Below, one piece after another: positions 39,462 to 55,878 of a stretch of 64,000 bases of DNA. How positions within the stretch are numbered: the stretch's first letter is position 1; each line of letters starts with the position of its first letter. Source of the DNA: Thalassotalea sp. 273M-4 (GTDB taxonomy: Bacteria > Pseudomonadota > Gammaproteobacteria > Enterobacterales > Alteromonadaceae); the NCBI RefSeq assembly GCF_041410465.1, contig NZ_CP166961.1:1178001-1242000 (forward strand), read 5' to 3'. The notes beneath the pieces are model-generated. The model was not told the origin of the DNA, did no database searches, and was given only the letters and a program-made list of their open reading frames with translations. Both the position numbers and the translations under genes were made by a program.

Positions 39462-42400
39462 TTGTTGTTGAATTTTATAATTTGTAGTTTAAATCAGCTC
39501 ACTAAAATTTTTTTTCAATGTTTGCCCATTGTTAAGAAATTTTTTGTCGTACCTAAATTTCTTTTATTATTACTGTGCATAAACTTTGCCTCTTATGCTA
39601 AAGACGTTAAATTGCGTGATGACTTAGGCTGGGCAGGGCATGGTGACTTTTTAGGTGCGGCTTACTCTTATAAAATCGATAATACCCAATGTCCTATAAA
39701 CGGCAGTTCCGAACTCGTATTAGAAGGTTTTCCCGCAGGTGCAAGGGTCGCTAAAGCTCATATTATTTGGGCATGGTCTAATTTGCTTCCTTTGGACGAT
39801 CCTGAAAATCAGGCCAGTTTTAATGTGACATTAAATGGTACGTCGATATCAGCACCTACAGACAGGCAGTATGAATTTACATTTGATAATGGTGGTCAAT
39901 TAAATAGGTTTTACTCCGCAGGTGCAGAAGTAACCAGTATTGTCGATTCTGTGATACGTTCAGGTCAGAACAGATTTAAATTTGATGGTATAACCGATAC
40001 CAATTTAGGAGAGCAATGTGCCCAGCTTGCGATAAAAGGCTGGAATCTTATCGTTTATTATGAAGTGAGCGAGGCCGATAAAGCCACAGAGCTTTTTCGA
40101 ACAATAAATTTATTTGAAGGGTTTGATTCGTTCCGCTATGAGAGTTTAACGCTGATACCCAAAAACTTTCGAATACCAGTATCAGAGGATGGCGATCTAA
40201 TCATTCCTGATGGCGTTCATGTTGGTAAACATGCTCACATCACTTGGGAAGGCGATGCCGATATATCTGATGCACAAGAGAATCTTGAATTTGGCGGGCA
40301 ACCTTTAACCAATACTTATAACCTCATAAACGAACAATATAATTCAACGTTTTCTGACGATGTCGTTGGTGTTTCTCAAACAGGTTTATATGGTTTAGAT
40401 TTTGACATCTATGATATTACTAAGACAGTCAAAGACTCTCATGATCCTATGTTTGCAATACCTGACATAGAAACAGAGGTGACTACCCTCTACTCAGCCG
40501 GTCAAGACTTGGTGATTTTAAGCGCCGAGGTCTTAAGTATTATGAATGTGGATGTGACCGACCTTGAGGTTAATCAAGGTAATTACCTCAGCGAACAATT
40601 GATCCGAGGTAATACTGCAAATTTAAGAATACTCGTTGATAATCATGGTCCCTTCGCCACCTCTGGCAGTTTAACCACTACGGTCACTTTACCTGCTGAT
40701 TTATCTTTATTTGGCGCAACCTCGTTTAATTCCAATGGCTGGAGTTGTGTCAGTGTATCGGCATCGAACGATGTTTTAGACTGTACTAAAAATGTGAGTT
40801 TACTCGATGGTCAGCAAGATTACTTTGATATAGCGGTGAGTGTGTCATTAAGCGCAAACCCCACGTTTACCGTTCAAGTGAGCATCCCTGGTGTTGTTGA
40901 TAACCCTTACCCAATTGCTGATGGTAACTTTGATAACGTCACCAGTAACAATAGTAAAGAATTTACTTATTCGGTATTTATTAGCGGCGCCGACTTAACG
41001 ACATCGACAAAAACGGTTAACGACTTAAATAAAGGCGGGGTAGAAGCGGGGGATTTACTGGAATATACTGTCACCATTACCGAAAGCGCCAATGATGCAA
41101 TCTATAATGTTTCCGTTAGTGATGTTTTGCCAAGTAATCTTGAACAACTGACCATTATCGAGTTACCAGCTGGCGCGATTGATAACTCTACCAGTACACA
41201 AGTCAATGTCAGTAATATCGATATTGCTGCCAGTGGGCAAGCGCTTATTCGTTATACCGCACGGGTCAGCTCGAGTGTACAACCAGCCGAAAACATTACC
41301 AACATTGCCACCATCACTAACCTTGATTTAGCCGATGTGATCGTAAGCTCTTCGGTAAGCGTGTATAACTCAACCCCCGCCAGCGGGGTAAAACAACTGT
41401 ATTTGCGTCACCCAAGCGATGCGCCTGCCTCAGCACTATTACCAGGTGCTATTGGTCGTTTATCTCGCGAAGCAACGACAACCGATGCTGGCACCTTGTT
41501 TATTGATAAAAACGATGGTGGTGCCAAATGCTTAGATGGCGATTTATCCCAAGTCTATTGTTTGGTATTTACTCTTGACCCATTACTAGTAAGCGACTTA
41601 CAAATCGATGAAGTAGACCTTGATGTTGTTATTACCGGCGCGGGTAAAGGCGATAACTATGGTTTTGCGCTTATTAATAATAATAATGATATCATCGCAC
41701 AATACAACTTGGATGCGACAGAAGCTGATGTTAAGCTCAATGGTACAGCAATCGTTCGAAGTTATACCTTACAAGTAAATTCTGCAAATGCCTTGGTTCA
41801 AGCGGGTGATACCTTACGCTTGGTTATTCAAAATAACGGTAACAATAAAAAAGGTATTAATATCATCCCATTTAGTAATTCTGCACCAGGTGTGTTTTCG
41901 CAACTGCGCATTAACACCTCGACCGTTATTAATGTCGATAATATTGACACCTTAGATAGCAGCACAGTACTAACGAGCAATAATTTTGAACGCGGTAGTC
42001 AAATGCTAAGCAGGGTAATTGTAAGTGACCCGTTTGGCACCTTTGATATTGAAAACGTCAGCATTGTGATGACAGATGCCAACGATAACGAGGTGCTAAA
42101 TATTGCCTCTGCCTCTGCTTTGACCGAAATCCCCGATGATGTGGTGTTAACAAGCGCGCAGCAACTATATGAGTTTACCTACGATATTCCCGCCGATGCA
42201 GCTTTAGGGGTATGGCAAATTTTTGTGCAAGCCGACGAAGGTAAAGAAGGGGTGATTTTAGACAATGACGTCTATGCCTTTAGTGTGTACGTACCGCCAG
42301 TGCTTGATGTCAGTAAATCGGTCGCTTTAGCTAGCGCCCCCACAACCCCAATTAGCAATGCAAAACTTGGTGATGTTTTGCAATACACCATTTTAATTGC

Positions 42401-42716
42401 CAATAATAGCTTAGGGGATGCGGTTAATATAATGCTTAATGAAAATATTAGCCCATACAGCGCGTTAAAATTTACCAGCACAAACCCCGTTGACGATAGT
42501 TTCAATTGTCTTGACTGCGTTGAAGCGGGTATTTCTTATAGCGAGCCGGTGTATTCAAACAGCCATGATAATAATTTTACTTATACCCCTGTTATTGTAG
42601 ATAATGGCGCCGGTGAACCGATAGACCCTAATGTAACAAATATTAAAATTGATTTAACTGGCACATTAAAACCAGATAAATCAATTACCTTTACGTATCA
42701 AGTTGTTGTAAATTAG
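39462..42716 (+). CDS. Secreted multi-domain DUF11-repeat surface protein (operon gene 1)
   Basis: About 1084 aa, or 1064 from an in-frame TTG at 39522; no ATG is available, and the later TTG gives the better signal peptide ('FLLLLLCINFASYAKD'). A roughly 300-residue N-terminal beta domain ('GWAGHGDFLGAAYS' to 'YDITKTV'; DUF3344-like in my reading) is followed by DUF11-type domains near 375-510, 515-640 and 960-1084 ('KTVNDLNKGGVEAGDLLEYTVTI', 'SKSVALASAP'). A separate beta domain lies at about 650-940. It ends on a DUF11 strand, '.FTYQVVVN'. DUF11 domains are found in bacterial surface proteins. It is the first gene of a five-gene run. Confidence 0.7.
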   Translation: MLLNFIICSLNQLTKIFFQCLPIVKKFFVVPKFLLLLLCINFASYAKDVKLRDDLGWAGHGDFLGAAYSYKIDNTQCPINGSSELVLEGFPAGARVAKAHIIWAWSNLLPLDDPENQASFNVTLNGTSISAPTDRQYEFTFDNGGQLNRFYSAGAEVTSIVDSVIRSGQNRFKFDGITDTNLGEQCAQLAIKGWNLIVYYEVSEADKATELFRTINLFEGFDSFRYESLTLIPKNFRIPVSEDGDLIIPDGVHVGKHAHITWEGDADISDAQENLEFGGQPLTNTYNLINEQYNSTFSDDVVGVSQTGLYGLDFDIYDITKTVKDSHDPMFAIPDIETEVTTLYSAGQDLVILSAEVLSIMNVDVTDLEVNQGNYLSEQLIRGNTANLRILVDNHGPFATSGSLTTTVTLPADLSLFGATSFNSNGWSCVSVSASNDVLDCTKNVSLLDGQQDYFDIAVSVSLSANPTFTVQVSIPGVVDNPYPIADGNFDNVTSNNSKEFTYSVFISGADLTTSTKTVNDLNKGGVEAGDLLEYTVTITESANDAIYNVSVSDVLPSNLEQLTIIELPAGAIDNSTSTQVNVSNIDIAASGQALIRYTARVSSSVQPAENITNIATITNLDLADVIVSSSVSVYNSTPASGVKQLYLRHPSDAPASALLPGAIGRLSREATTTDAGTLFIDKNDGGAKCLDGDLSQVYCLVFTLDPLLVSDLQIDEVDLDVVITGAGKGDNYGFALINNNNDIIAQYNLDATEADVKLNGTAIVRSYTLQVNSANALVQAGDTLRLVIQNNGNNKKGINIIPFSNSAPGVFSQLRINTSTVINVDNIDTLDSSTVLTSNNFERGSQMLSRVIVSDPFGTFDIENVSIVMTDANDNEVLNIASASALTEIPDDVVLTSAQQLYEFTYDIPADAALGVWQIFVQADEGKEGVILDNDVYAFSVYVPPVLDVSKSVALASAPTTPISNAKLGDVLQYTILIANNSLGDAVNIMLNENISPYSALKFTSTNPVDDSFNCLDCVEAGISYSEPVYSNSHDNNFTYTPVIVDNGAGEPIDPNVTNIKIDLTGTLKPDKSITFTYQVVVN

Positions 42717-42750
42717 TTGTAAAATCGTCGAAAGTCGACTGTAATGGAGA

Positions 42751-43236
42751 ATGAAAGTGGTAAAAGTATTTAAAACCTTAGTTATTAGTTTACTAATAGC
42801 CCCGGTGATTGCCTTTGCGGCGCCAAACGTAGAAATTAAACAAATTGTCGAAAAAGAGATCACAATGATAGTTGATGGCGTACAAGTAACAAAACGCGTG
42901 CCTGCTAGCGAAATAGAGCCGGGCGCCGTTTTGTTTTTTACTTTGTCTTATAAAAACTCGGGTGATCAAGTGGCAACTCAAGTGGCCATTGATTCGCCAA
43001 TTCCAGAGGGAACCACCTATGTTTTAGGCAGTGCCTTAGGAGAAGGTGCTAAAGTTTTGGTCAAGCTAACCAATGAAACGGATTATCAAGAGGAAGCGTC
43101 TGCCAAGGTGAACTTTATCGATGGTGAAACGATCCCTGCACAAGCAAGTGATATTAGTGCATTACGCTGGATTGTTGCCGATATTCCACCGGCAAGTGAC
43201 GGTAAAGTGAGTTTTCAAGTGGAGGTAAATCAATAA
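42751..43236 (+). CDS. Secreted single-domain DUF11-like protein (operon gene 2)
   Basis: A 161-aa protein: signal peptide (1-24, 'LIAPVIAFAAPN') and one DUF11-like domain. 'VEPGAVLFFTLSYKNSGDQVATQVAI'-type strands and 'PIPEGTTYVLGSA' match the pattern '.Y.......A..V...D.LP.....'. It ends at the last strand 'VSFQVEVNQ'. Being one domain long, it could be the pilin-like building block or cap of a larger structure; this is inference. It starts 34 bases after gene 1 and has GGAGA directly upstream. Confidence 0.7.
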   Translation: MKVVKVFKTLVISLLIAPVIAFAAPNVEIKQIVEKEITMIVDGVQVTKRVPASEIEPGAVLFFTLSYKNSGDQVATQVAIDSPIPEGTTYVLGSALGEGAKVLVKLTNETDYQEEASAKVNFIDGETIPAQASDISALRWIVADIPPASDGKVSFQVEVNQ

Positions 43237-43332
43237 AACCTATGCAAAATTCAAGCAACAAAACCTAGCAAATTTGGCAGATGTAAAAAATATAACTAAT
43301 ATTAAAATTAAAAATAAATCTAAGGAAAAGGT

Positions 43333-44697
43333 ATGAAAATTAAAACCTTACGTTCAAAGTTCGCAACACTAGCCTCAGTGTTTGTGTTCTCGGCGCTGGC
43401 AAACCAAGCGTATGCAAGCACCACCGCCAAGGCAACCATCTTTAACGAAGTGCAAGTCAGCTACCAAGCACCAGGCTCTTCAACTGATATTATTGCGCTG
43501 TCTTCCGTTCAAGTTACCGTGCAGCTTATTAAGGCATATCCATCGGTATCTGTACCTAGCTATGATCCTGCTAATCCGCAGTCTTCGACAACCGGCACAG
43601 TGGGTAGTATTTTTAAAGTGACCTCTAACGCTAATGGTGAAGACACTTACCCGATAGCTCTAACACCGGGTACCAATACAAACCTTGATGGTATAACCGT
43701 TGCTGCATATTTAACCGATGCAACACGAAACCCAACAGGCGATGCACTTACTGACGTTACCTTAGGTTCGGCGATTATAACGGGCGGTGGTGCAGGGTTT
43801 GTGACCGTGCCCTATGTAGCTAAAGATCCTAATGGTTATAATGGCCTTAAGTCAGGTGACTTTGTGACCATATCGGGTACTGAGTACCAGATAAATACCA
43901 TTACAGACGGTGCTGCTGTTGCTCCATCAACGGTTACCGACACTGGCATTAGTAAAACTCCAGAGCAACAAGTTCAAATTTCTTTTGTCGGGCACGATAC
44001 CACTAACTTTGGAAGTACTGGTCTGGACTATGAGGGTCTGGTACTTGGCGAAACACAGTACATTTATGTTCAATCGAGCGCTGTAAATGAGTCTCAAGGA
44101 GCGCAAGATATTACAAACGTATTTTCAGTTGGCGTTACCGCATCAACCGATCCAGATGCACCTGATACTTCAGGCTCGCAAGAAATCCATAATGATATTG
44201 TCACCTTTTATGGCATTAATTTAAATCTGACCAAATTGGTTCAAGTTGTAGCACCAGATGGAACTTTCAACCCAGCAACAACCGCTTATGTCGCAACGAC
44301 CGATTCACCTACGGCATACCCTGGTGATACCCTACATTATTTAATTACCATGGATGCAGACGATACGAATGCGACTGCAAGTAAGGTGGTAATAACCGAT
44401 GCATTGCCTTTGTATACCACATTGGTAAAAGATGCCAAAAGCATTACGGTTACCTACCAAAAATATGATCCAATTACTAGTCCTGCAGCAACCGTTGCCA
44501 CTAACTTAGCTATTTTACCTGATGCGGGTGATAGCTTTGAAACCGAGGATACAGGCGCAAATATTAATATATTTGTAACGGTTGGTAGTGATGGTAATTT
44601 AACGGTTAATCTAGGTGAAGGGGCAACTGCAAGTGCAGGCGGTAAAGTCTCTGCTCAAGATACGGTTGCAATTACCTATTCGGTAATCGTGGAATAA
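43333..44697 (+). CDS. Secreted DUF11-like surface protein (operon gene 3)
   Basis: A 454-aa protein: signal peptide (1-28, 'FSALANQAYAST'), an N-terminal segment starting 'AKATIFNEVQVSYQ', a middle beta region with 'VTSNANGEDTYPIAL', and a C-terminal DUF11 domain (about 300-454, 'LNLTKLVQVVAPDG', 'VVITDALPLYTTLV') that stops at '.AITYSVIVE'. The layout parallels gene 4, and the 'SNANG' motif is shared, so the two are paralogs. The composition is rich in Thr, Ala, Val and Asp and has no Cys in the mature part, typical of exposed proteins. AAGGAAAAGG precedes the ATG. Confidence 0.7.
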   Translation: MKIKTLRSKFATLASVFVFSALANQAYASTTAKATIFNEVQVSYQAPGSSTDIIALSSVQVTVQLIKAYPSVSVPSYDPANPQSSTTGTVGSIFKVTSNANGEDTYPIALTPGTNTNLDGITVAAYLTDATRNPTGDALTDVTLGSAIITGGGAGFVTVPYVAKDPNGYNGLKSGDFVTISGTEYQINTITDGAAVAPSTVTDTGISKTPEQQVQISFVGHDTTNFGSTGLDYEGLVLGETQYIYVQSSAVNESQGAQDITNVFSVGVTASTDPDAPDTSGSQEIHNDIVTFYGINLNLTKLVQVVAPDGTFNPATTAYVATTDSPTAYPGDTLHYLITMDADDTNATASKVVITDALPLYTTLVKDAKSITVTYQKYDPITSPAATVATNLAILPDAGDSFETEDTGANINIFVTVGSDGNLTVNLGEGATASAGGKVSAQDTVAITYSVIVE

Positions 44698-44741
44698 TCC
44701 TTACCAATTTTTTATATAGAATATCAACAAAAGGATAAGGT

Positions 44742-45890
44742 ATGAGATTATTAAATAAGTTTTTATTCAACAAACTTGTTGTTATACCTATGATATTGCT
44801 ATTGACGACGGTGTCCGCGCACGCGGGCACCGGTGCTCAGGCAACCATTCATTCAAGTGCAAAGTTAACCTATAACGGTGGTTCGGCCTATGATTCTGCG
44901 ACTGTAAAGGTAAAGCTTGTTGCCGCACCCGTTGATATCCGTGTTGATGAGACAACGATTTCGGTTGACGCGGGTAACAATGCCCAATTTACCTTTACCT
45001 TTGCATCCAATGCTAATGGTAAAGAAGTGTATACATTATCCACAGACAGCATTGTAAACGAAGGCGTTGATGTACCAACGGTGAGTTTTGCCGGTGGTAC
45101 CCAATTGACCCTTGGTGCCAGTATCACCAGTGCGCCCATGGATACCACTAACGTGCTAAAAATACCAGCAGGTACCGCGAATATGTTTGATGATAACGAT
45201 ATCATTCGTTTATCAGACGGAAACGCTAACTACCCAGGTACCTATCGCATTACATCTCGAGTTGAAGGAACGGTAGCTACTACCAACGCGAATGGTGATA
45301 CCTTGCCAGAATCGCCAGCGTTAATTACCGTTGTACCAGTCAGCGGAGGCGCCCTTAACAATGTACCTGCGGGTGTGCAAATAGGCGAAGTGAAAGATGT
45401 GCAAGTAACCATTACTTCAGGTACGGTTAACGGTGGCGCTGCAACGCCAGAGCATGTGATTAACTTCTCGGTCACATCAAAAACCGATCCTGATTCGGTT
45501 GCAACTACCTCAAGCAATAACAACAACGAAGTCGTGGTTGTGGTATCGGTACCGTCAACTTTAGAGTTTGTAAAAGAGGTTAAATTAGCCTCTGCTGGCG
45601 ATGAAACCTATGTGAGTTATTTAGAGGCAAACCCTTCTGAGGTGCTCACTTACCGTATTACCGTCAGCAATAATTCTGGTGCAACGGTTACTGGCGCTAA
45701 CGTTACCGATGTGATCCCAAACTTCACCAAGTATGTTGATGACTCACTCAAGTTAAACGGCGCATCGTGGACCGGTGATTTGCCGTGGTCAACCAATGGC
45801 ATGACGGTAAAAAGTACCAATGCGGTGAATGATGGCGATATTTTGGCAGGCGAAGTGGCCATTATTTCATACAACGTTGTTATTAATTAA
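44742..45890 (+). CDS. Secreted DUF11-like surface protein (operon gene 4)
   Basis: A 382-aa protein: signal peptide (1-28, 'LLTTVSAHAGT'), 'AQATIHSSAKLTYNG' at the mature start, a middle region with 'ASNANGKEVYTLS', and a C-terminal DUF11 domain (about 270-382, 'VKEVKLASAGDE', 'VTDVIPNFTKYVDDS') ending '.IISYNVVIN'. It is a paralog of gene 3. It starts 44 bases after gene 3 with AAGGATAAGG upstream. Function is unknown; a structural surface role is inferred from the domains, signal peptide and operon. Confidence 0.7.
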   Translation: MRLLNKFLFNKLVVIPMILLLTTVSAHAGTGAQATIHSSAKLTYNGGSAYDSATVKVKLVAAPVDIRVDETTISVDAGNNAQFTFTFASNANGKEVYTLSTDSIVNEGVDVPTVSFAGGTQLTLGASITSAPMDTTNVLKIPAGTANMFDDNDIIRLSDGNANYPGTYRITSRVEGTVATTNANGDTLPESPALITVVPVSGGALNNVPAGVQIGEVKDVQVTITSGTVNGGAATPEHVINFSVTSKTDPDSVATTSSNNNNEVVVVVSVPSTLEFVKEVKLASAGDETYVSYLEANPSEVLTYRITVSNNSGATVTGANVTDVIPNFTKYVDDSLKLNGASWTGDLPWSTNGMTVKSTNAVNDGDILAGEVAIISYNVVIN

Positions 45891-45919
45891 CGTTCGCTGA
45901 AATAAGCAAGGACTCGGCA

Positions 45920-48900
45920 GTGAAGTTGGTGCAGAGAGCATTGAGCAAGTACGCTCTTTATCATAAAAATATCTTGGGTGGTCACACTCAAGATATTTTT
46001 ATGCGTTTTATTTGCACCACGTTTCGTGCTTTTACTTTGTTAATCCGTTGCCTGCTTGTTCTTTTGGTTGGCTTTTACGCCAACGCCAATGAAATGACTT
46101 TTGCCAAAGATGGTGAAACCAAATCGACGCAAGCAAGCCTGTCTTATCATTATAACGGTGAGATAAAAACACTTACCGACCAAGCCACTATCAAAATTTT
46201 ATACACCCAAGTGGACAGCCCTACGCCCTCGGTTATTGAATTTTTGCAATTTGAACAAGGTGATAATGGGCAAGCCTATCAGCTTGAGTCGCTATTGTTT
46301 TCACAAACGGCCGAGCTTAATGCCGGCTTTGTTCCCGGGCAAAGTGAGGTTGCCTTTGGCAACGAAATATTAGGCCAGCAGCAGGTTTTATTTCCCACTA
46401 CGGTAACTTTAGTCCCAACCAAAGCCTATACGATTGGCGAGCCGATATTTGTGAAAGTGCGTGATGTTGATCAAAACAAAAATGATCAGATCAGCGAGCA
46501 CATTGTGATTAGTTTATCTGCATCTGGCAGTACCGATAAAGAAGTTATCGTGTTGGTTGAAACCAGCCCAAGTAGTGGTGAGTTTATTGGCTATATTCCA
46601 TCCATAAGGTTTGTCGAGCAAATCGCCACGGACGGGGTATTGGCTTTAGCCTCTAACAGTGAAATTTCAGCGACTTATGTTGACCGATTTGACCAATCCG
46701 ATGTGTCTGCAACCGCGGCTCTGGTCGACCCTTTTGGGCTGATTTTTAATAGCGATAACGGCGAGGGGGTTGATGGCGTAGAAATTACCTTAGTTAATGC
46801 CGATAGCAATGAGCCTGCCGAAGTATTTGCTAATGATGGCATTACCCCGTACCCATCAACGCTTATCTCGGGTTCTTTAGTAAAAGATGAAGCCGGCAAC
46901 GAATACCAATTAGGGCAGGGCGAATACCATTTTCCTTTGATCAGACCCGGCAATTATCGCTTACAAATTACCCCACCAGAGGGCTATTTTGACAGCTTTA
47001 GTCGCCAAACAAACGAACAGTTAAGGCAATTATCCAATGGTACTGACTTGGTGTTAGTCAATGGTTCTCGTGGCGAAGTGTTTGAAATTGTCCCAGGGCC
47101 GGCGATTCAAATTGATGTGCCGATAGACCCCATTCCAAGTGAGCCATTTATTGTTAAGCGAGCCAATAAATCAAGTGCCGCGCTTGGTGATTTTATTCAG
47201 TACACCATAAGCGTTGAAAATCCGTCACTTTTACGCTCGACCGAGCCCGACTTTATCATAGACACCTTACCTGTCGGCTTTCGTTATGTTAAGGACAGCT
47301 TAACCATAGATGAGCAAGTATCGAGTGCTATCGATGTCTCTGCGGATGGTCAAATATTAAAAATTGCTTTGCCATCAATCGATGTTGAGTCGATTATTAA
47401 CGTTAAATATGTTGCGCAAATAGGCCCAGGTACCCCATTAGGTGAGGCGGTTAATGTCGCCGAATTAGCGTCTTTAGGTGGCTCTGGTAATGTCGCTAAA
47501 GCTCAGGTCACCATCGTTGAAGATTTGTTTCAGTCAAAGTCTATTTTAATGGGGCGGGTGATTTGGGATAACTGTCAAGGCGATGTCGCGACAACAAACA
47601 GCAAAGGGGTTGAGAACGCTCGTATTTTTATTGAAGATGGTACCTTTGTTAACACCGACAGTAATGGCCTGTGGCATATTGAAGGGGTAAAACCTGGTAG
47701 CCATATTGTACAACTTGACTTAGAAAGCTTGCCTGAAAATTTAGAGGTGGTGCAATGTAAACATACCAGCCAACGGGCCGGTACGCCTTTTTCAGAATTT
47801 GTTGATGTTCAGGGCGGTACCATGTGGCGGGTAGATTTTCATTTACGTGAAAAACCCTCAGAAGTTGGACAAGTTCAACTTAATCATAAAATTCTTACCC
47901 GCTCTGAACGACTGGTTAATTTGAAAGTTCACTTTGAACACGACAAAGCCATCGTTTTGCCGCAATATTTTGCTGAAATAAGTCAACTCGCCGAGTATTT
48001 AAAAGCAAATCCAGACGCTCAAGTGACTATTGCTGGGCACACTTCCTCGGTGGGTGCTGAAAAATATAATTTTAAACTGTCTTTTGAGCGCGCCGATGCG
48101 ATTAAAACGGTTTTGATTAAGCGTTTTAATATTGCGCCTGAACGCATTACCAGTAAAGGCTATGGTGAGTCTAAGCTGCTAAAATTAGGTGATAGCGAAG
48201 ACGATCATCAAGTTAATAGACGCATAGAAGCGATTATTAACCACCTATCGGCGCCGAGTGTACCGCAAACCCTAAAAGTTGCTTTGGATGTGCAATTGGC
48301 GATGGCACCATCGTATCAACAAGCCTTAAAAGATATTGCGTTACACTATCAATTACCCGCCGGTTGGCAATTAAAACCCAACAGCTTATATATTGATAAG
48401 GTTCAAGCCGATTTTGACGACATCGCACTTGGTCTGCGTATTCCTTTAACGGCCAAAGAGCTGCAAGAGGTTCGCTTTGAGCTTATGCCATCAACGCAAT
48501 TATCAACCAAGGTATCGTATAATGGCACGGCTATGGCTCAGGTGGTTTATCATAACCCACTGCCTTATGATGAGGTTATGAGCAATAAAACACCCCAAAA
48601 TGCCATCCCGTTATTGGATTTATTAAATAGTCAGCCTCGCTTTAATGTGGCGCAAAGTGACAGTCCAAACATAAACCGTAAAGTTACCGAGCGGAGCGTG
48701 GAGAGTAAAGAACAAGGCGTTGCTATGGGGCTAGGCAGCGTTGAGCTTGAGGCCGACCAGACTCGAGACACCAGTGTTGCTGAGCAACTGGGTATTTTAT
48801 CGTTAAAAGATGGTCAGTTTATTGCGCGCAGTACCACCGCGATTCGATTTCGCTTAGACTCTCGTTTAAAACCTAAATTATTTGTCGATGCAAAAGAAGT

Positions 48901-51862
48901 GTCAGCCGACAGACAAGCCTATAAATCGGCTAATCGTGAGACAGGCAAAACCACCTATAACTATATTGGCGTAGAGGTGGGGGAGCAAGGTGAGCACGAG
49001 GTGTTGTTGCAAGGTATTGGCCCTTTTGGCAATGCCCGCTATGAGCAGAAAATTACTGTTACTCGCACCGGTGAGGTGCAAAAACTCAGACTTGTGCAAG
49101 CTCAAGGTAATATTGCCGATGGTAAAACGCCGCTAAAAATTCAGCTGGCTTTATTAGATAATCAAGGCAATCATATTCCATCTGAAGTGAAGCTATCGAT
49201 TGAAAACTCCAGTTTAAAACCTTTTCAAAACGAACATGAGCGTAATAACTTAGAGGCTGATGGTTCCCAACTGACGATGGCACCCGACGGTACGGTTTTA
49301 TTTAACCCCGTGGCTAAAGCCGGTTTATACAGCGCCGATATTATTTATGACGATGAAGTTGCTGAGCACATTAAGTTTTATGTAAGTCCATATCTAAGAG
49401 ACTGGATTTTGGTTGGTTTTGCGCAAGGCACCTTAGGTTATAATCATTTATCTGGTCATATGGAATCGTTAACGGCGAATGATTTTGACGATGACTTATA
49501 CCAAGACGGTGAGATTAAGTTTTATGCAAAAGGGCGAGTCAGTGGTGATTGGTTATTAACCCTTGCTTATGACAGCAGCAAAAAAGTGCAAGAAGAAATT
49601 CTTAATCAAACCATCACGCCAGGTGCGTATTATACCTTGTATGGCGATGCTTCGATGCAAAGACACGATGCGGCCAGTCGAGAAAAACTGTATTTGCGTA
49701 TTGAAAGAGACAAATATTTCGCATTATTTGGTGATTACAGTACGGGTTTAAATCATGGTGAATTGGTCAATTACAGTCGTTCTATGACCGGTTTTAAAAG
49801 CGAATATAATGGCGAGTTGTTCAATGTCAATATGTTTGCAGCCAATACCGAACTGGCTTTTGTTCGTGATGACATTCAAGGCCAAGGGATCAGTGGTTTA
49901 TACTATTTAACCAACCGAGATCTAGTCGCCAATTCTGAAACCATTACCTTGCAGGTTCGCGATCGCTTTAGACCCGAAATTATTGTTGAAGAAACCCAAC
50001 TTGCACGCTTTATTGACTACAGCATTGACTATGTCGACGGTAGTTTATTCTTTAAACGCCCAATAATGAGTGTTGATAGAAATAATAACCCGCAATACAT
50101 CGTTGCCGAATATGAAACCAAAGGCGAGTTGGGTAAAAAAGACTTAGTCGCAGGTGGTCGCTTAGGGTTTGTTTTACCAAGCTTTACGGATGCTGAAGAC
50201 GGTGAAATCGGTATCACGCATATTAGCGAAGGCGATTCTGGTCGAGATGGCACCTTAACCGGTGTTGACATAGAGTATAACTTTACCGAGGACGTTCGTT
50301 TAAAAGCTGAAGTTGCCCGCTCTGATACCAATTTTGAAGGTGAAAACAACCAAGGTGATGCCTATGTTGTTGAGTTAAATCATAAAGGTGAAATTATCGA
50401 TGCGATGGCCTATGTGCGTGAGCAAGAAGGCGGCTTTGGCTTAGGCCAACAAAGTCAAAGCGAAGAGTCTATGCGCAAGGTGGGGACCGATCTTCGCTAT
50501 CATCTGGGTGATGACTTGGAACTGGATATGACCTTGTACCAGCAAAAAGATTTAACGACCACAAGAAAGCGCGATGTTGCCGAGGCAAAAGTTGACTACA
50601 AAAGTGATAGAGATAACTATTTTGTCGGTGTTAGAACGGCTAAAGACAGTGGTGGTGCAGAATCTAAGGTTGATGAAAAGTCAGATCAATTTATTGTTGG
50701 TGCTCGTAAACAATTTCTCGATGGTGACTTAACCCTGTCTACCGATTTAGAAAAAACATTAGCAAACGACGATAATCAAGCGTATCCCACTCGTATCTCA
50801 CTAGGTGCAGACTATGATATTACCTCGAGTATTACGTTTAATGCCGATCAAGAATTTTCTCGCTCAGATGATGGTAATGAGCAAACGACCTTACTGGGCT
50901 TAACAGCGAATCCTTGGGAAGGTATGTCGCTGGCGACCAATATGTCACAGGCGTTGACCGAAAATTCAGAGCGCGTGTTAGCCAATTACGGACTATTTCA
51001 AAATGTTGAGTTAAATTCAAATTGGCAAATTAGCTTTGGTTTTGACCGCGCAGAGTTACTTAGTGATAGCGATAAAGAAAAGCCTGAAAACGGCACGGAT
51101 GAGGGTGATTTTAATCAATCTGAAGTCAATAGCGAAGACTTCTCGGCGCTATCAATGGGTGCAAATTATAATACCGAAGCATGGATGTGGGACAGCTTAA
51201 TTGAATATCGTATGAGTGATAGCGATGATAAGTGGAATGTTATGTCATCGGCTTTGCATGACTTGTCAGATGGTATTGTGGTGGCCGCTAAGCTTGATAT
51301 AAATAAAACAACATCAAACATTGAGCTTAACAAAACCTTAAAGAGTGGTATCAGCTTTGGTTATGCGTATCGACCTATCACCAGTCGATGGATTGTGCTT
51401 AATAAATTAGAGTTTAAATATAATGACGTGATTTCTCAGCTTAACGACAACAAGTCAAGACGTTATATTAATAATACCAACGCCAATTATGTGTTAGATG
51501 ATGATACCCAGCTGTCTTTACAATACAGTTTTAAATACGTGCTAGAAAGCTTCGAAAGCGGAGATTACAGTGGCTTCACCGATTTAATGGGGGCCGAAGT
51601 TCGCCATAATGTGAATGCGTTTTTTGATGTAGGCTTACATGCCAATATTTTAAATTCGAGACAAGCAAATATGTTAAAGCTTAATTACGGCGTGTCGATA
51701 GGTTACAGCCCAGAAAAAAATATGTGGTTGAGTTTGGGCTATAACTTTAGTGGCTTTGATGACAAAGATTTCAGTCAAAGTGAATACACCGCTGAAGGGG
51801 TGTTTTTGAAATTTAGGATCAAAGCGGATCAAGAGAGCTTTAAATCAATTTTTGAAGAATAA
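45920..51862 (+). CDS. Giant outer-membrane protein: DUF11, carboxypeptidase-like, OmpA-like and C-terminal barrel regions (operon gene 5)
   Basis: A 1980-aa protein. After a signal sequence (hydrophobic about 37-55, cleavage near 'YANANE') comes an N-terminal region related to genes 3 and 4 ('ASLSYHYNGEIKTL'), a DUF11 domain (about 410-535), a carboxypeptidase-regulatory/SdrB-like domain (about 545-640, 'GRVIWDNCQGD', 'DSNGLWHIEGVKPG') and an OmpA-like domain (about 666-776, 'HFEHDKAIVLPQ', 'GHTSSVGAEKYN', 'QVNRRIEAII') that may bind peptidoglycan. More beta domains follow, then from about 1160 alternating strands to the end that look like a large outer-membrane barrel. GTG 45920 has AAGGA eight bases upstream; ATG 46001 is in frame but follows a hairpin directly. 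It is probably the anchor or exporter for the four secreted proteins. Confidence 0.72.
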   Translation: MKLVQRALSKYALYHKNILGGHTQDIFMRFICTTFRAFTLLIRCLLVLLVGFYANANEMTFAKDGETKSTQASLSYHYNGEIKTLTDQATIKILYTQVDSPTPSVIEFLQFEQGDNGQAYQLESLLFSQTAELNAGFVPGQSEVAFGNEILGQQQVLFPTTVTLVPTKAYTIGEPIFVKVRDVDQNKNDQISEHIVISLSASGSTDKEVIVLVETSPSSGEFIGYIPSIRFVEQIATDGVLALASNSEISATYVDRFDQSDVSATAALVDPFGLIFNSDNGEGVDGVEITLVNADSNEPAEVFANDGITPYPSTLISGSLVKDEAGNEYQLGQGEYHFPLIRPGNYRLQITPPEGYFDSFSRQTNEQLRQLSNGTDLVLVNGSRGEVFEIVPGPAIQIDVPIDPIPSEPFIVKRANKSSAALGDFIQYTISVENPSLLRSTEPDFIIDTLPVGFRYVKDSLTIDEQVSSAIDVSADGQILKIALPSIDVESIINVKYVAQIGPGTPLGEAVNVAELASLGGSGNVAKAQVTIVEDLFQSKSILMGRVIWDNCQGDVATTNSKGVENARIFIEDGTFVNTDSNGLWHIEGVKPGSHIVQLDLESLPENLEVVQCKHTSQRAGTPFSEFVDVQGGTMWRVDFHLREKPSEVGQVQLNHKILTRSERLVNLKVHFEHDKAIVLPQYFAEISQLAEYLKANPDAQVTIAGHTSSVGAEKYNFKLSFERADAIKTVLIKRFNIAPERITSKGYGESKLLKLGDSEDDHQVNRRIEAIINHLSAPSVPQTLKVALDVQLAMAPSYQQALKDIALHYQLPAGWQLKPNSLYIDKVQADFDDIALGLRIPLTAKELQEVRFELMPSTQLSTKVSYNGTAMAQVVYHNPLPYDEVMSNKTPQNAIPLLDLLNSQPRFNVAQSDSPNINRKVTERSVESKEQGVAMGLGSVELEADQTRDTSVAEQLGILSLKDGQFIARSTTAIRFRLDSRLKPKLFVDAKEVSADRQAYKSANRETGKTTYNYIGVEVGEQGEHEVLLQGIGPFGNARYEQKITVTRTGEVQKLRLVQAQGNIADGKTPLKIQLALLDNQGNHIPSEVKLSIENSSLKPFQNEHERNNLEADGSQLTMAPDGTVLFNPVAKAGLYSADIIYDDEVAEHIKFYVSPYLRDWILVGFAQGTLGYNHLSGHMESLTANDFDDDLYQDGEIKFYAKGRVSGDWLLTLAYDSSKKVQEEILNQTITPGAYYTLYGDASMQRHDAASREKLYLRIERDKYFALFGDYSTGLNHGELVNYSRSMTGFKSEYNGELFNVNMFAANTELAFVRDDIQGQGISGLYYLTNRDLVANSETITLQVRDRFRPEIIVEETQLARFIDYSIDYVDGSLFFKRPIMSVDRNNNPQYIVAEYETKGELGKKDLVAGGRLGFVLPSFTDAEDGEIGITHISEGDSGRDGTLTGVDIEYNFTEDVRLKAEVARSDTNFEGENNQGDAYVVELNHKGEIIDAMAYVREQEGGFGLGQQSQSEESMRKVGTDLRYHLGDDLELDMTLYQQKDLTTTRKRDVAEAKVDYKSDRDNYFVGVRTAKDSGGAESKVDEKSDQFIVGARKQFLDGDLTLSTDLEKTLANDDNQAYPTRISLGADYDITSSITFNADQEFSRSDDGNEQTTLLGLTANPWEGMSLATNMSQALTENSERVLANYGLFQNVELNSNWQISFGFDRAELLSDSDKEKPENGTDEGDFNQSEVNSEDFSALSMGANYNTEAWMWDSLIEYRMSDSDDKWNVMSSALHDLSDGIVVAAKLDINKTTSNIELNKTLKSGISFGYAYRPITSRWIVLNKLEFKYNDVISQLNDNKSRRYINNTNANYVLDDDTQLSLQYSFKYVLESFESGDYSGFTDLMGAEVRHNVNAFFDVGLHANILNSRQANMLKLNYGVSIGYSPEKNMWLSLGYNFSGFDDKDFSQSEYTAEGVFLKFRIKADQESFKSIFEE
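45965..46000 (+). terminator. Terminator-like hairpin at the start of gene 5
   Basis: AAAAATATCTTG (45965-45976) pairs perfectly with CAAGATATTTTT (45989-46000) around a 12-base loop and ends in five T. It lies within the first codons of the GTG-started frame and directly before the in-frame ATG 46001. It could be an attenuator that lowers gene 5 relative to genes 1-4. Confidence 0.5.
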
Positions 51863-51927
51863 AACCATAAATAAAACCGCTTGATACAATCAAGAAACAT
51901 AGCGAGTAGATAACTAGGAGGTTATTG

Positions 51928-52371
51928 ATGTACTATGAAAGTTACAATCAGTCATTAATCATTGGCTATAGCCCACATGCTAGCCATTCGAAGATTAATA
52001 CACATTTAATGGACTATGAAAAAGAAGTGCTGGTTATGCAAGAAAAGTTAGAATTATTTTGGTCAATCTTTGAAGACGATAAAGAATCAGCGGTTGAAAT
52101 ATGTAGTATGTTTTGTAGCTATGTACCTGAACTATTTAATACCATCGATGAAGCGATAAGCCAACAAGATGTGGAAACGGTGAAAAAAACGGTTCACAGC
52201 TTAAAAGGTACGCTAGGGTATTTAGGTTTTGAAGCCGAAAATAAGCAAGTCGTAGAGCTAGAAGAGTCTTTAGAAGACTCACCTCTTGTCGATATATTAC
52301 AGCCTTATCAAGAGCTTAAGTTGCACCTTGAATCAGTTGTGCAAATGTTATCGAATGAAGTTTTAGCCTAA
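51928..52371 (+). CDS. Stand-alone histidine phosphotransfer (HPt) protein
   Basis: A 147-aa protein whose C-terminal 105 residues form an HPt domain with the phospho-accepting His90 in 'KKTVHSLKGTLGYLGF'. It has no kinase or receiver part. HPt proteins pass phosphate between the receiver of a hybrid kinase and a response regulator. AGGAGG lies six bases before ATG 51928, one of the strongest ribosome sites in the window. A hybrid kinase without HPt and an OmpR-type regulator are encoded on the other strand just after it, so the three probably form one relay. The first 35 residues are of unknown role. Confidence 0.85.
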   Translation: MYYESYNQSLIIGYSPHASHSKINTHLMDYEKEVLVMQEKLELFWSIFEDDKESAVEICSMFCSYVPELFNTIDEAISQQDVETVKKTVHSLKGTLGYLGFEAENKQVVELEESLEDSPLVDILQPYQELKLHLESVVQMLSNEVLA

Positions 52372-52621: not shown

Positions 52622-53353
52622 CTAGGAGGCGCAAATTACTTCATTATCGATAAACTTTTGGCTTTGAAGTTTATACCCTTTAGAGCGAATGGTAATGATA
52701 ACCTCTTTATTTAAACCCGCATTGACCAGCTTTTTCTTTATTCGCGAAATGCTGATGTCTATCCCTCTTGAAATGCCATCGTAATTAATGCCTTTTAACG
52801 ACAAATAAATATGATCTCGACTGAGCAGGGCATCTTTATGAATTAATAAGAAATACAGTAATTCAAATTCATGGTTACTAAATTCAATTAATTGGTCATC
52901 GTATTTACAGTAGTGATGGCGCTTGTTAAATAAAAATTTACCTAAAACAATCTCACTCGGCTGATTATCTTTGTGGTCTTTCTCAAAGCCTAATAATCGT
53001 TCTACTCGTGCGTGAATAACTTCAAAGGGCCGAGTTTTAACAATGAAATCATCGGCGCCTAATTTAATCCCCTTAAGCTCACTTCCGGATGTTTCATCGG
53101 CGGTGAGAAAAATAACGGGGCCGTCATAATGGGTTTTTAATTCTTCGCAGACATCAAAACCTGAGACATGTGGTAAACCGATATCCAGTAATACACAGCT
53201 TGGTGAATGACGAATAACAAGCCGTTCAACGACGTCGCCCCGAAACGCTTGGTGGACTATATAGCCTTTACTTTCAAATTTCTTTTTTAAGGCTAGAGAG
53301 ATAATTTTGTTGTCTTCGACAATCAAAATACTTTTTTCAACTTGTTCTTGCAT
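52622..53353 (-). CDS. OmpR/PhoB-type response regulator
   Basis: A 243-aa protein with a receiver (acid pair 'VEDN', phospho-acceptor Asp57 in 'LLDIGLP', Thr in 'FLTADET', Lys in 'FIVKTRPFE') and a winged-helix DNA-binding domain (about 140-235, 'FSNHEFELLYFLLIHKDALLSRDHI', 'ISRIKKKL', 'IRSKGYKL'). It would bind DNA after phosphorylation. It is followed downstream by the hairpin shared with the HPt gene and preceded, 74 bases away on the same strand, by the hybrid kinase gene, so kinase and regulator are co-transcribed. Its targets are not known; the DUF11 operon is the nearest candidate. Confidence 0.9.
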   Translation of the reverse strand: MQEQVEKSILIVEDNKIISLALKKKFESKGYIVHQAFRGDVVERLVIRHSPSCVLLDIGLPHVSGFDVCEELKTHYDGPVIFLTADETSGSELKGIKLGADDFIVKTRPFEVIHARVERLLGFEKDHKDNQPSEIVLGKFLFNKRHHYCKYDDQLIEFSNHEFELLYFLLIHKDALLSRDHIYLSLKGINYDGISRGIDISISRIKKKLVNAGLNKEVIITIRSKGYKLQSQKFIDNEVICAS

Positions 53354-53427: not shown

Positions 53428-55878
53428 TTAAAGCACTGTTGAGACTTGCTCAGCTTTAATGGCTTGTACTAAAGCCTCTGGTTTAAATGGCTTATTTAAA
53501 AAATTTGTCATGCCAAGTTCTAGGCATGCTTTTTTTGTTGTTGGTTTAACATCGGCGGTTAAGCCAATGATTTTTATATGTTCCCATTCCTTTTGTAAGC
53601 GTATAAGTTTTGTCGCTTCATAGCCGTCCATTTCTGGCATGTGTAAGTCCATAAGAACGACATTATAACTTTTTTTCGATAACATTTGGATAACTTCAAA
53701 ACCATTTTCGGCAATGTCGACGTTGCCATTTAATTTTTGAATCATCTTTTTCGCCACCAATTGATTTAATTTCACATCTTCCGCCAACAAAATTGACTCA
53801 TCAGTTAAGTCCAAGTCCAGCCATGAACAGACTTTAGGTGATATGGTATTGTTGTCTTGTGGGGCAAAGTGTTTTATTTGAGCCAACACTTGTGATGGCA
53901 GAAGAGGTAATGCCATGCAACTAATATTATTAAATTTTTTATACTTGAGTTGATTGTTTGCTTGGTCAGCGACAAAAATACGATGATAATGTTGGCAAAG
54001 GGTGTTGGCCTCGGATGCTGACAGGGCATCAAAATCAGACGCAAGAATGAATAAGTACGAAGGCTGAATGGATTTGCTTTGTTGTGCCAAAAGAGCGCTA
54101 ACAGTTTCAAATTTACAACCGGCTCGACTTAAAGTGGATGCCATATGATCTAAGGTGTGAGCCGTTGCTTGATTGGAATAGCCATCAAGGCGCCATAAAT
54201 TAAAGTCAATATTGGCGGGAACGTGCAAGTTTTGGTAAATAAGCTCTTTAGAACATCTTACGGGTAATGACAGTGTACATTGGGTGCCGACATTTTTCTC
54301 GCTTTCAATAACAATATCGCCTCCCATATCGCAGGCAAGACGTTTACAAATGGCCAAACCTAAGCCGCTTCCACCGACCTTTTTTGTCGTCGAAGAATCC
54401 GCTTGATCAAATGGGTTAAAAATGTATTTTTGCTGCTCCGTTGAAATACCGCAACCACTGTCAATGACGGTAAACATTAAATAGGTTTGCGATTTTATGC
54501 TCTGTGCTTCAACCCGGATTTTTATCGAGCCTTGCTCGGTAAACTTAACGGCATTGGTTAAAATATTCAGTAAAATCTGACTTAACCTGTCGCCATCGGT
54601 ATGAATATATTTCGGTACCGATGGGCTAATGTCACAATACAAATCAAGCTGTTTAACCGACGCTGATACAGAGGTTAAAGAAACAACTTTAGCCAGTATT
54701 TTCTCTATTTCAGTATCCTGATATTTGAACGTTAGTTTACCCGCTTCCATTTTTGACCAATCTAAAATGTCGTTGATAACCACCAATAAAGAGTCCGATG
54801 CAGTGATCAATTGCTCGACATAGTCTTTCTGGTTGGGATCTAAAGGGGTGGTTTTTAACAGCTCATGTAAACCCATAATCCCATTAAGAGGGGTTCTGAT
54901 TTCGTGGCTCATATTGGCTAAAAAATCACTTTTGGCGCTGTTCGCAACTTCGGCTTTATCTTTTAACTGTGCCGACTCATCTACCTGCTTGTTTAAATGA
55001 TTTATGTAATCATCGATACGATAAAACAGCGCTTTAAAGTTATTGGTTAAGCTTTTCATTTCCAAAATAGGGGTCTTAGCCGTGAGTTTATCTATTTGGG
55101 CTTTACTTAATTGATGATGAATGTAGGAGGTCACATTGCCATTGAGTTTCACTAAGGGGCGACCTATGAGCATGTAAACCGACAAACTGCCAAGAACCAC
55201 AAAGCTAAAAACGAGAATATTGAGGATAAACAATATGTCTTCAAAGAGCACTAACAAGCGTTGAGCGGTGTTGTATTCTTCATCAAAGCGATGATTGATG
55301 TTTGTCAGAAATCCTTCTACGTAAGCGGTTACTTTTTGTTTTAATTGGTCATGCTGTTGGCTGTAGAGTTGGTTTATGGCATCAGACTTTTCGGTTTGAC
55401 TGGTATTTGTTGACCCGATCAGGTTGATGGCTGGTTGGGTAAACTGACTCTGGCGATTAAGACTTAACATTGCATGCTGCAACATGACAATCTCATTAAA
55501 TTTAAGGCTATATATTTGGTTCCAATCTTGCTGTGTTAACTTATGATCTTCTTTGGTAAAGGGCTTTGTCTTAATGAATTGGGTTGCGTTAAATTGCTCC
55601 AATTCACTTGCTTCATTGCCGGGTAAAATGGATAAAAGAGTCGATATATCTTGGCGAAACTCAGGGTCGAGGGTGATGGCATAATCTCGGGCTAATCTAG
55701 ATAACGTATGTGAACTATTCTGAACTTTATCGGCGATTTTTGTAAACTGACTTCGTTTTAAGTGGAGTTCGGCTTTCTCTGTCACTTTTTCATTGTAAAT
55801 CCAAGTTACCATCGAACTTGCAGCTAACAAACTTAACGTAACCACTAAATATAAGAAAAAATAGCTTTTTAGTTTCAT
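53428..55878 (-). CDS. Hybrid sensor histidine kinase without HPt
   Basis: An 816-aa kinase with an N-terminal helix (about 7-25), a periplasmic helical sensor (about 30-210), a second helix (about 212-235), a HAMP-like linker, HisKA with His325 ('[12 protein letters not shown]'), an ATPase domain ('[13 protein letters not shown]', '[12 protein letters not shown]') and, after a degenerate receiver-like stretch (about 560-680), a C-terminal receiver with Asp744 ('[13 protein letters not shown]'). The layout resembles TorS/BarA-type kinases but lacks the last HPt domain, which the 147-aa HPt protein at 51928 can supply. The signal is unknown. Confidence 0.88.

Follow-up and report, generated by a model that had tools for sequence, protein, structure and literature searches.

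What kind of structure might be built by an operon of secreted DUF11 proteins whose last gene encodes a giant protein with an OmpA domain and a barrel-like C-terminal region? This question is raised by five genes in a stretch of 64,000 nucleotides from Thalassotalea sp. 273M-4 (contig NZ_CP166961.1, positions 1,178,001 to 1,242,000; hereafter "the window", in whose numbering all coordinates are given), a bacterium whose genome is a single contig of 3,372,503 bases. The genes occupy positions 39462 to 51862 of the forward strand and follow one another with gaps of 34, 96, 44, and 29 bases, at the places and with the sizes that a sequence-only reading of this DNA had listed. That reading had also proposed a surface structure in which the fifth protein may anchor or export the others, and the termini of all five proteins, compared here across many relatives, point that way.

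We consider it probable, from the sequences of these proteins, that the operon encodes a surface fiber in which split DUF11 (CLIPPER) domains are completed by donor strands of neighboring subunits. What the sequences show is the split, its polarity across the family, its conservation, and the co-occurrence of the genes; assembly, covalent bonds, surface location, the barrel, and any export through it are inferred from these. In such a fiber, the products of genes 1 to 4 would act as acceptors that end in a DUF11 domain without its last strands, and those of genes 3 to 5 as donors that begin, once the signal peptide has been cleaved, with a segment equal to the missing strands, so that the donor of one subunit would complete the acceptor of the previous one. 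The resulting order would place gene 1 at the tip (acceptor only), genes 3 and 4 in the shaft (both functions), and gene 5 at the base (donor only), held to peptidoglycan by its OmpA domain and to the outer membrane by a probable barrel. Gene 2 would be an acceptor without bond chemistry, serving either as a cap or as a chaperone-like holder by which donors are kept from one another until export.

Split DUF11 domains in a conserved operon

Relatives of the operon were collected by searching genome contigs with a gene-5 profile, which found at least 582 of them. The 80 best loci were retained. According to their record titles, they come from Gammaproteobacteria, Deltaproteobacteria, Zetaproteobacteria, and Nitrospirota, and from genera of the Betaproteobacteria. 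Our set of 81 loci consists of these 80 without two in which gene 5 was not called (L115 and L118), together with the window, L035, and L037, the duplicates L036 and L038 being excluded. Same-strand open reading frames (ORFs) upstream of gene 5 were assigned to gene-1, gene-2, and shaft classes by iterated profiles, with genes 3 and 4 sharing the shaft class since they match each other's profiles and are therefore taken as paralogs. Signal peptides were assigned by eye.

A strand of alternating hydrophobic residues with a polar end forms the very C-terminus of 19/19 gene-1, 48/49 gene-2, and 91/105 shaft proteins, compared with 5/217 and 47/634 ORFs in two control sets. In the window, these strands are TFTYQVVVN in gene 1 (42687-42713; the last strand of the incomplete domain), VSFQVEVNQ in gene 2 (43207-43233), AITYSVIVE in gene 3 (44668-44694), and IISYNVVIN in gene 4 (45861-45887). 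When aligned to the internal DUF11 domain of gene 5 as unbroken reference (64 sequences, 142 columns), the C-terminal profiles of gene-1, gene-2, and shaft proteins all end at column 97 (E 2e-13, 1e-11, and 1e-10, respectively). Past this column, the unbroken domain continues with a strand that carries a '.vN.A' motif and then with its last strand. A similar pattern, 'T.I.N.A' followed by a second strand, stands only a few residues past the signal peptide in shaft and gene-5 proteins, whose N-terminal profiles match each other with E 1.5e-8.

The two halves were then brought together in a joining test, in which a DUF11 profile built from internal domains only (hence from the same kind of proteins and not from an outside model) was run on C-termini alone and on C-termini fused to N-termini. 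Fusion to shaft or gene-5 N-termini raised the score by 4.0 to 6.6 bits on average, with an alignment that reached at least model position 110 in 74-94% of cases; for gene-1, gene-2, and unrelated N-termini, the change was -0.6 to +0.1 bits and the same position was reached in 3-18%. Within the window, the N-terminus of gene 3 added 9.4 to 14.6 bits and that of gene 4 added 3.5 to 9.2 bits on the four C-termini. From the C-terminal and joining results we therefore assign genes 1 and 2 as acceptor only, genes 3 and 4 as acceptor and donor, and gene 5 as donor only at the level of the family, and this distribution therefore gives the polarity of a donor-strand fiber with tip, shaft, and base, as read from the sequences.

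Gene by gene, the same features appear as follows. Gene 1 (39462-42716; 1,084 aa) encodes a secreted protein whose N-terminal region matches no Pfam family and which also has an internal DUF11 domain and the incomplete C-terminal one. Gene 2 (42751-43236; 161 aa) consists of one incomplete DUF11 domain. Gene 3 (43333-44697; 454 aa) is of the shaft type with acceptor and donor, the latter being the first 46 mature residues (43417-43554), and gene 4 (44742-45890; 382 aa), the shaft-type gene that adjoins the base gene, has its donor segment of equal length at 44826-44963. The corresponding first 46 residues of mature gene 5 occupy 46088-46225. The DUF11 assignment of the sequence-only reading stands for genes 1, 2, and 4, which exceed the Pfam cut-off (PF01345), and is less secure for gene 3, which has no Pfam match up to E 0.1 and scores 24.0 bits with TIGR01451, exactly at the cut-off. 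All five above-cut-off DUF11 matches found by six-frame search of the host genome fall inside the operon; a sixth, below cut-off, lies elsewhere.

Genes 3 and 4 carry donor and acceptor on one chain, and each might simply fold its N-terminal strands into its own C-terminal domain, so that no fiber would form and gene 5 would be a separate, peptidoglycan-tethered adhesin. An AlphaFold2 (AF2) model of the gene-4 monomer is in keeping with such self-completion: it holds the N-terminal strands, a pair at residues 35-44 and 47-56 plus further strands, with pLDDT values of about 90 (mean pLDDT 88.9, pTM 0.70 for the whole model). Auto-complementation is likewise described for some AF2 predictions of an archaeal thread subunit in PMC9715654. 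However, self-closure is impossible for genes 1, 2, and 5 because each has only one of the two halves: the former two are acceptors without a donor, and the latter is a donor without a C-terminal acceptor. Acceptor-only proteins also occur outside the operon. Outside the operon, the shaft profile found four longer ORFs in one family of bacteria (L156 to L159; 656-711 residues) that all end in the acceptor strand, have a different N-terminal region, give no donor match, and show Lys and Asp at the expected motifs (by eye). They count as one observation and not as four because the genomes are related, and they look as a tip should, which bears out at the sequence level the expectation that acceptor-only tips exist elsewhere. 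We therefore regard self-completed monomers as an unlikely account of the whole set. In L156, a second gene-1-like protein is encoded immediately after the first.

The co-occurrence check suggested with the sequence-only reading found the set conserved together across several phyla, contrary to the lack of joint conservation that this reading had named as a refutation. Partner genes were counted in those 51 of the 81 loci, window included, that have at least 3,600 bases upstream of gene 5: a gene-2 homolog is present in 48/51, at least one shaft homolog in 49/51, and a gene-1 homolog in 18/51. In a sample of 398 genomes from the phylum of the window, we found a full-length gene-5 core (as read by us from the match ranges) in 35, a shaft protein in 30, and a gene-2 protein in 40. 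Core and shaft protein occur together in 28 genomes, i.e., in 28 of the 30 that bear a shaft protein, compared with 2.6 expected by chance, and core and gene 2 in 31 compared with 3.5, although these expectations are only a guide because the sampled genomes are mutually related. The core lacks a shaft match in 7 genomes and a gene-2 match in 4, and gene 2 occurs without the full core in 9. Gene-2-like proteins were also seen in two genomes (L160 and L161) that show no gene-5 core at the threshold used.

Within the genus the operon is patchy, with gene 2 found in 4 of 15 genomes of the genus and in none of 24 other genomes. The closest named relatives of gene 5 are Thalassotalea proteins with 57% and 52% identity over the last 1,201 residues. 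Identity to two relatives from the genus is 28% for gene 3, the most divergent of the five genes, compared with 62-64% for gene 4 and 51-55% for gene 5; such divergence might fit an exposed major subunit. A gene of 576 aa upstream of the operon in the window also has a homolog upstream in the same two relatives, with one or two genes intervening.

The isopeptide triad of unbroken and split domains

The DUF11 family has been renamed CLIPPER in a study that presents the crystal structure 9IFR from a fibrillar adhesin of Acinetobacter silvestris; in that paper, the domain is described with nine strands and an isopeptide bond between Lys715 and Asn806, presumably catalyzed by Asp748, with Asn806 placed before the Cys818-Cys821 motif of the ninth strand (PMC12617251). 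The internal domains of gene 5 match 9IFR with E 3e-6, and their conserved Lys and Asn align on the bond partners Lys715 and Asn806. Of 251 unbroken domains, 193 have Lys, an acid, and Asn or Asp together, and the internal DUF11 domain of gene 5 in the window (47156-47455) has the full triad in one chain (Lys413, Asp448, and Asn512). In the split domains, Lys and Asp are found on the acceptor protein and Asn on the donor protein.

On the acceptor side, the residues are nearly invariant, with Lys in 103/104 and Asp in 102/104 shaft acceptors and both Lys and the acid in 19/19 gene-1 homologs. The window has Lys952 (42315-42317) and the acid Glu994 (42441-42443) in gene 1, Lys301 (44233-44235) and Asp356 (44398-44400) in gene 3, and Lys278 (45573-45575) and Asp323 (45708-45710) in gene 4; an alignment of 51 gene-4-type proteins puts the conserved Lys column at window residue 275, three residues off the Lys278 taken here. 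Gene 2 differs in that its homologs have the acid in only 13/49, with Asn at that position in 33, and show no Lys column above 60% in the first strand.

On the donor side, Asn is present in 90/105 shaft and 37/55 gene-5 proteins when all sequences are counted. Among proteins that match the donor profile, it is found in 90/97 (or 90/98) shaft and 37/41 gene-5 proteins, rates that are biased upwards since the profile was made from 79 shaft N-termini selected with a pattern that in most cases demands Asn. No such pattern entered into the alignment of 51 gene-4-type proteins, in which the donor column has at least 90% Asn. Register errors do occur, given that at least one of the four gene-5 matches scored without Asn (L046) has it a few residues further on. 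Among the donors of the window, gene 3 has Asn38 (43444-43446), gene 4 has Ser38 (44853-44855) where most relatives have Asn, and gene 5 has no Asn at the motif position.

Because Lys and Asp on the one hand and Asn on the other lie on different proteins, a sortase-free, self-catalyzed covalent fiber is therefore predicted for much of the family, in which the two halves of the triad would lock the joints by themselves. Judging from these residues, covalent joints should arise unaided in much of the family but for the most part not at gene 2. Only the donor of gene 3 should give such joints in the window. In its most far-reaching form, which we put forward tentatively and with a little less than even confidence, this idea makes the operon a natural split-isopeptide polymer: a covalent fiber of gram-negative bacteria from several phyla that needs neither sortase nor chaperone and usher, in which Lys and Asp of one subunit would react with the Asn of the next, with exchangeable tips, a catalytically dead gene-2 protein as donor holder, and assembly on or through an outer membrane base anchored to peptidoglycan.

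Several observations weigh against the donor-strand fiber or its covalent form. The donor segments alone match the missing columns of the unbroken domain weakly (E 0.015-0.055), and reversed shaft donors score 15.7, elsewhere in the model, compared with 13.7 for the forward sequences. In the window itself, the N-terminus of gene 5 changes the joining score by -2.4 to +1.2 bits and has no donor-profile match, and support for a gene-5 donor in this species comes entirely through the sequences of relatives, the motif being clearer in some of them. A donor match is also missing from 14/55 gene-5 and 8/105 shaft proteins across the loci. When the termini of the window are joined, scores with Pfam's DUF11 model rise little or not at all: gene 4 scores 28.6 bits alone, 25.3 with the N-terminus of gene 5, 23.9 with that of gene 4, and 29.7 with that of gene 2, and gene 2 goes from 32.5 bits alone to 35.3 with the N-terminus of gene 3. 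Two of the 51 loci (L037 and L073) have no partner gene at all. Regarding the chemistry, the Ser38 of the gene-4 donor recurs in three other genomes of the genus, and the conserved Asp of the '..D.L' motif aligns to Asp749 of 9IFR instead of the published 748, in a count that fits Lys715, Asn806, and Cys818. Finally, the OmpA domain of gene 5 sits between the donor N-terminus and the putative barrel, which most simply makes the donor periplasmic.

Gene 5 as candidate base and the flanking features

Gene 5 (45920-51862; 1,980 aa) encodes, in this order, an extended signal region, the donor-type N-terminus, the internal DUF11 domain, the OmpA-like domain, probable Ig-type regions (weak matches), and the probable barrel. 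The parts that the sequence-only reading had assigned to it are thus confirmed to different degrees. The OmpA domain is unequivocal (PF00691; residues 672-767, 47933-48220; 62.8 bits against a cut-off of 27.2, 4e-17), and the DUF11 character is borne out by TIGR01451 (35.1 bits, over cut-off), with the Pfam DUF11 model giving 22.4 bits in the protein scan (under cut-off) and 26.8 in the six-frame search (over). The carboxypeptidase-like match stays below the Pfam cut-off at 27.9 bits. For the putative barrel of the window, neither Pfam (over cut-off) nor the PDB sequences gave a match.

What speaks for a barrel is that the C-terminal region of about 830 residues contains 39 amphipathic 9-mers from residue 1150 on, as counted by a crude scan with a threshold of our choosing. 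DUF2490 was matched below cut-off in two relatives (in one of six scanned with 27.7 compared with 29.8 bits). The sequence-only reading would have been refuted by a described OmpA-barrel family that accounts for gene 5, but none of the named families that exceed their cut-off covers this region. Kinship with the type IX protein SprA, suspected from a motif, was dropped after SprA proved absent from six PDB profile-search matches. Many outer membrane proteins end in an aromatic or hydrophobic residue, and five shorter proteins that share part of the region, without any donor match, end in FINLVGKI, FLNLVASF, FLNILGRF, FINVIGTM, and FLNIIAQF.

In their five loci, which lie in other genomes of the phylum (L139, L140, L141, L142, and L146), a DUF11 protein is encoded directly 5' of a protein of 1,125-1,432 aa with part of the gene-5 core; the preceding protein has 1,834-2,625 residues in four of them, at distances from a 4-base overlap to a 3-base gap, and 740 residues in the fifth. 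The core region has no Pfam name above cut-off in the four of these shorter proteins that were scanned. The pairing of barrel and DUF11 is therefore wider than this operon type, to which the donor is specific. These loci, with a barrel-DUF11 link that does without donors, would also suit a system in which the gene-5 barrel reads the C-terminal DUF11 domain as an export tag on subunits that remain unjoined, as happens with the C-terminal domains in type IX secretion, and such a tag would explain why four otherwise unlike proteins share a C-terminal domain that ends at the same strand. It would leave unexplained both the split triad and the N-terminal segments that shaft and gene-5 proteins have in common, and we consider it distinctly unlikely as the full answer, although it could be compatible with a donor-strand fiber. 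That the chain stays in the periplasm and links outer membrane and peptidoglycan there, with gene 5 as its outer membrane end, would agree with a donor that precedes an OmpA domain which presumably must be periplasmic to bind peptidoglycan, but is very unlikely given that the N-terminal regions of gene 1 and of the acceptor proteins elsewhere differ, as exposed tips would, and that gene 3 is far less conserved than genes 4 and 5 (28% against 51-64%).

For the donor-strand fiber, the position of the OmpA domain between donor and barrel makes it most likely that the donor lies in the periplasm or in the mouth of the barrel and that the shaft passes outward. Gene 5 may export the other proteins through its putative barrel or may only anchor them.

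The early codons of gene 5 fold into a strong RNA hairpin (45962-46003; 19-bp stem; z -5.3), and this feature recurs in relatives, with a mean z of -3.8 over 58 gene-5 starts (35/58 at or below -3) compared with -0.9 for shaft starts (10/98), -0.1 for gene-2 starts (1/49), and -0.4 for others (2/68). The sequences of the stem vary among loci. An intrinsic terminator before gene 5 was considered and rejected; few relatives have a run of T after the hairpin (by eye), which is why we read it as expression control and not as termination. No RNA family or riboswitch was found between 37000 and 53500 of the window up to E 1, nor at gathering score in five loci. By means of the hairpin, the base might be made in smaller amounts than the shaft.

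Located 62 bases 3' of gene 5 and in the same orientation, a sixth gene that the sequence-only reading had not mentioned encodes a histidine phosphotransfer (Hpt) domain (51925-52371), and beyond it an OmpR-type regulator and a hybrid kinase are encoded on the opposite strand (52622-53353 and 53428-55878). We rejected these genes as part of the system since they are not beside the operon in two related genomes; they could nevertheless regulate the operon in this species.

Relation to known systems and meaning of the split domains

Chaperone-usher pili such as type 1 and P pili have an acceptor-only tip and an outer membrane barrel at their base. Their Ig-type subunits are joined by donor strands (PMC9715654). 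The operon is predicted to share with them subunits that lack the last strand or strands, an N-terminal donor on the next subunit, and an acceptor-only tip, and its base may likewise have a barrel. Donor complementation is indicated by profile comparison for the family; among the proteins of the window, this applies to genes 3 and 4 but not to gene 5. It differs in its DUF11 domains, its apparently two-stranded donor, and the split triad, and also in a base that has its own donor and an OmpA domain and in a single-domain gene-2 protein that is an acceptor and not a donor. Searches of the whole genome for the usher (PF00577) and for PapD-type chaperones (PF00345) gave no matches, with positive controls in E. 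coli.

The CLIPPER crystal 9IFR belongs to the same domain family and has the same Lys-Asp-Asn triad, but there the triad is intramolecular, whereas the cut domain of the operon leaves Lys and Asp on one protein and puts Asn on the next. Engineered versions of such a split exist as SpyTag/SpyCatcher, in which a strand holds one bond partner and the remainder of the domain the other; the operon has such a split in natural form, with both parts encoded together and the arrangement recurring from one subunit to the next. The nearest precedent that we found are threads of the archaeon Sulfolobus acidocaldarius, for which PMC9715654 describes donor-strand complementation, proposed intermolecular isopeptide bonds (Asn57 to the N-terminal amino group of subunit n+2) without a known sortase, and a subunit with no reported Pfam domain. 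They thus combine donor strands with intermolecular isopeptide bonds, of which the latter are a prediction for the operon, but they have neither a Lys-Asp-Asn triad nor an outer membrane.

Covalent polymers of Ig-type pilins with isopeptide chemistry are also formed by sortase-dependent pili, which resemble the operon in the predicted covalent polymer and differ from it in that the operon has neither an LPxT motif nor a sortase gene. No LPxT motif was found in the five proteins of the window, and LPxT[GAS] is present in the last 60 residues of 1 of 173 gene-1, gene-2, and shaft proteins. The statement of the sequence-only reading that sortase and usher are missing holds for the operon and, regarding the usher, for the whole genome, but one sortase gene does exist (G000:C1:1099468-1099830). 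This only sortase match of the genome lies about 118 kb from the operon and about 5 kb from an OmpA-type match, and possibly belongs to the dedicated proteobacterial sortase system.

In line with that reading, which knew of no such set, a literature search at the level of titles and beginnings of abstracts, with most subscription papers and bioRxiv preprints outside its range, brought up no description of the five-gene set. One paper came up for DUF11 together with donor strands (PMC11952670), and among papers on DUF11 and isopeptide bonds, PMC12617251 alone has a title that bears on the question. The principle of a donor-strand fiber is known; for the split of the DUF11 domain, that of the triad, and the base protein, no precedent was found as far as this search reached. 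Beyond the earlier proposal of a surface structure, the split of the DUF11 domain between proteins provides an assembly rule and a polarity, and the isopeptide triad is divided along with it.

If true, these genes would represent an undescribed class of donor-strand fiber across Gammaproteobacteria, Deltaproteobacteria, Zetaproteobacteria, Nitrospirota, and presumably Betaproteobacteria, and could account for the clustering of many "DUF11" and "OmpA family" genes whose function is unknown. The order of assembly would be readable from sequence alone, and members with a full triad would be predicted to form covalent joints without any enzyme, as a natural counterpart of engineered tag/catcher pairs. 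How the fibrillar DUF11 proteins of gram-negative bacteria are anchored would thereby become a question that can be tested directly at the bench.

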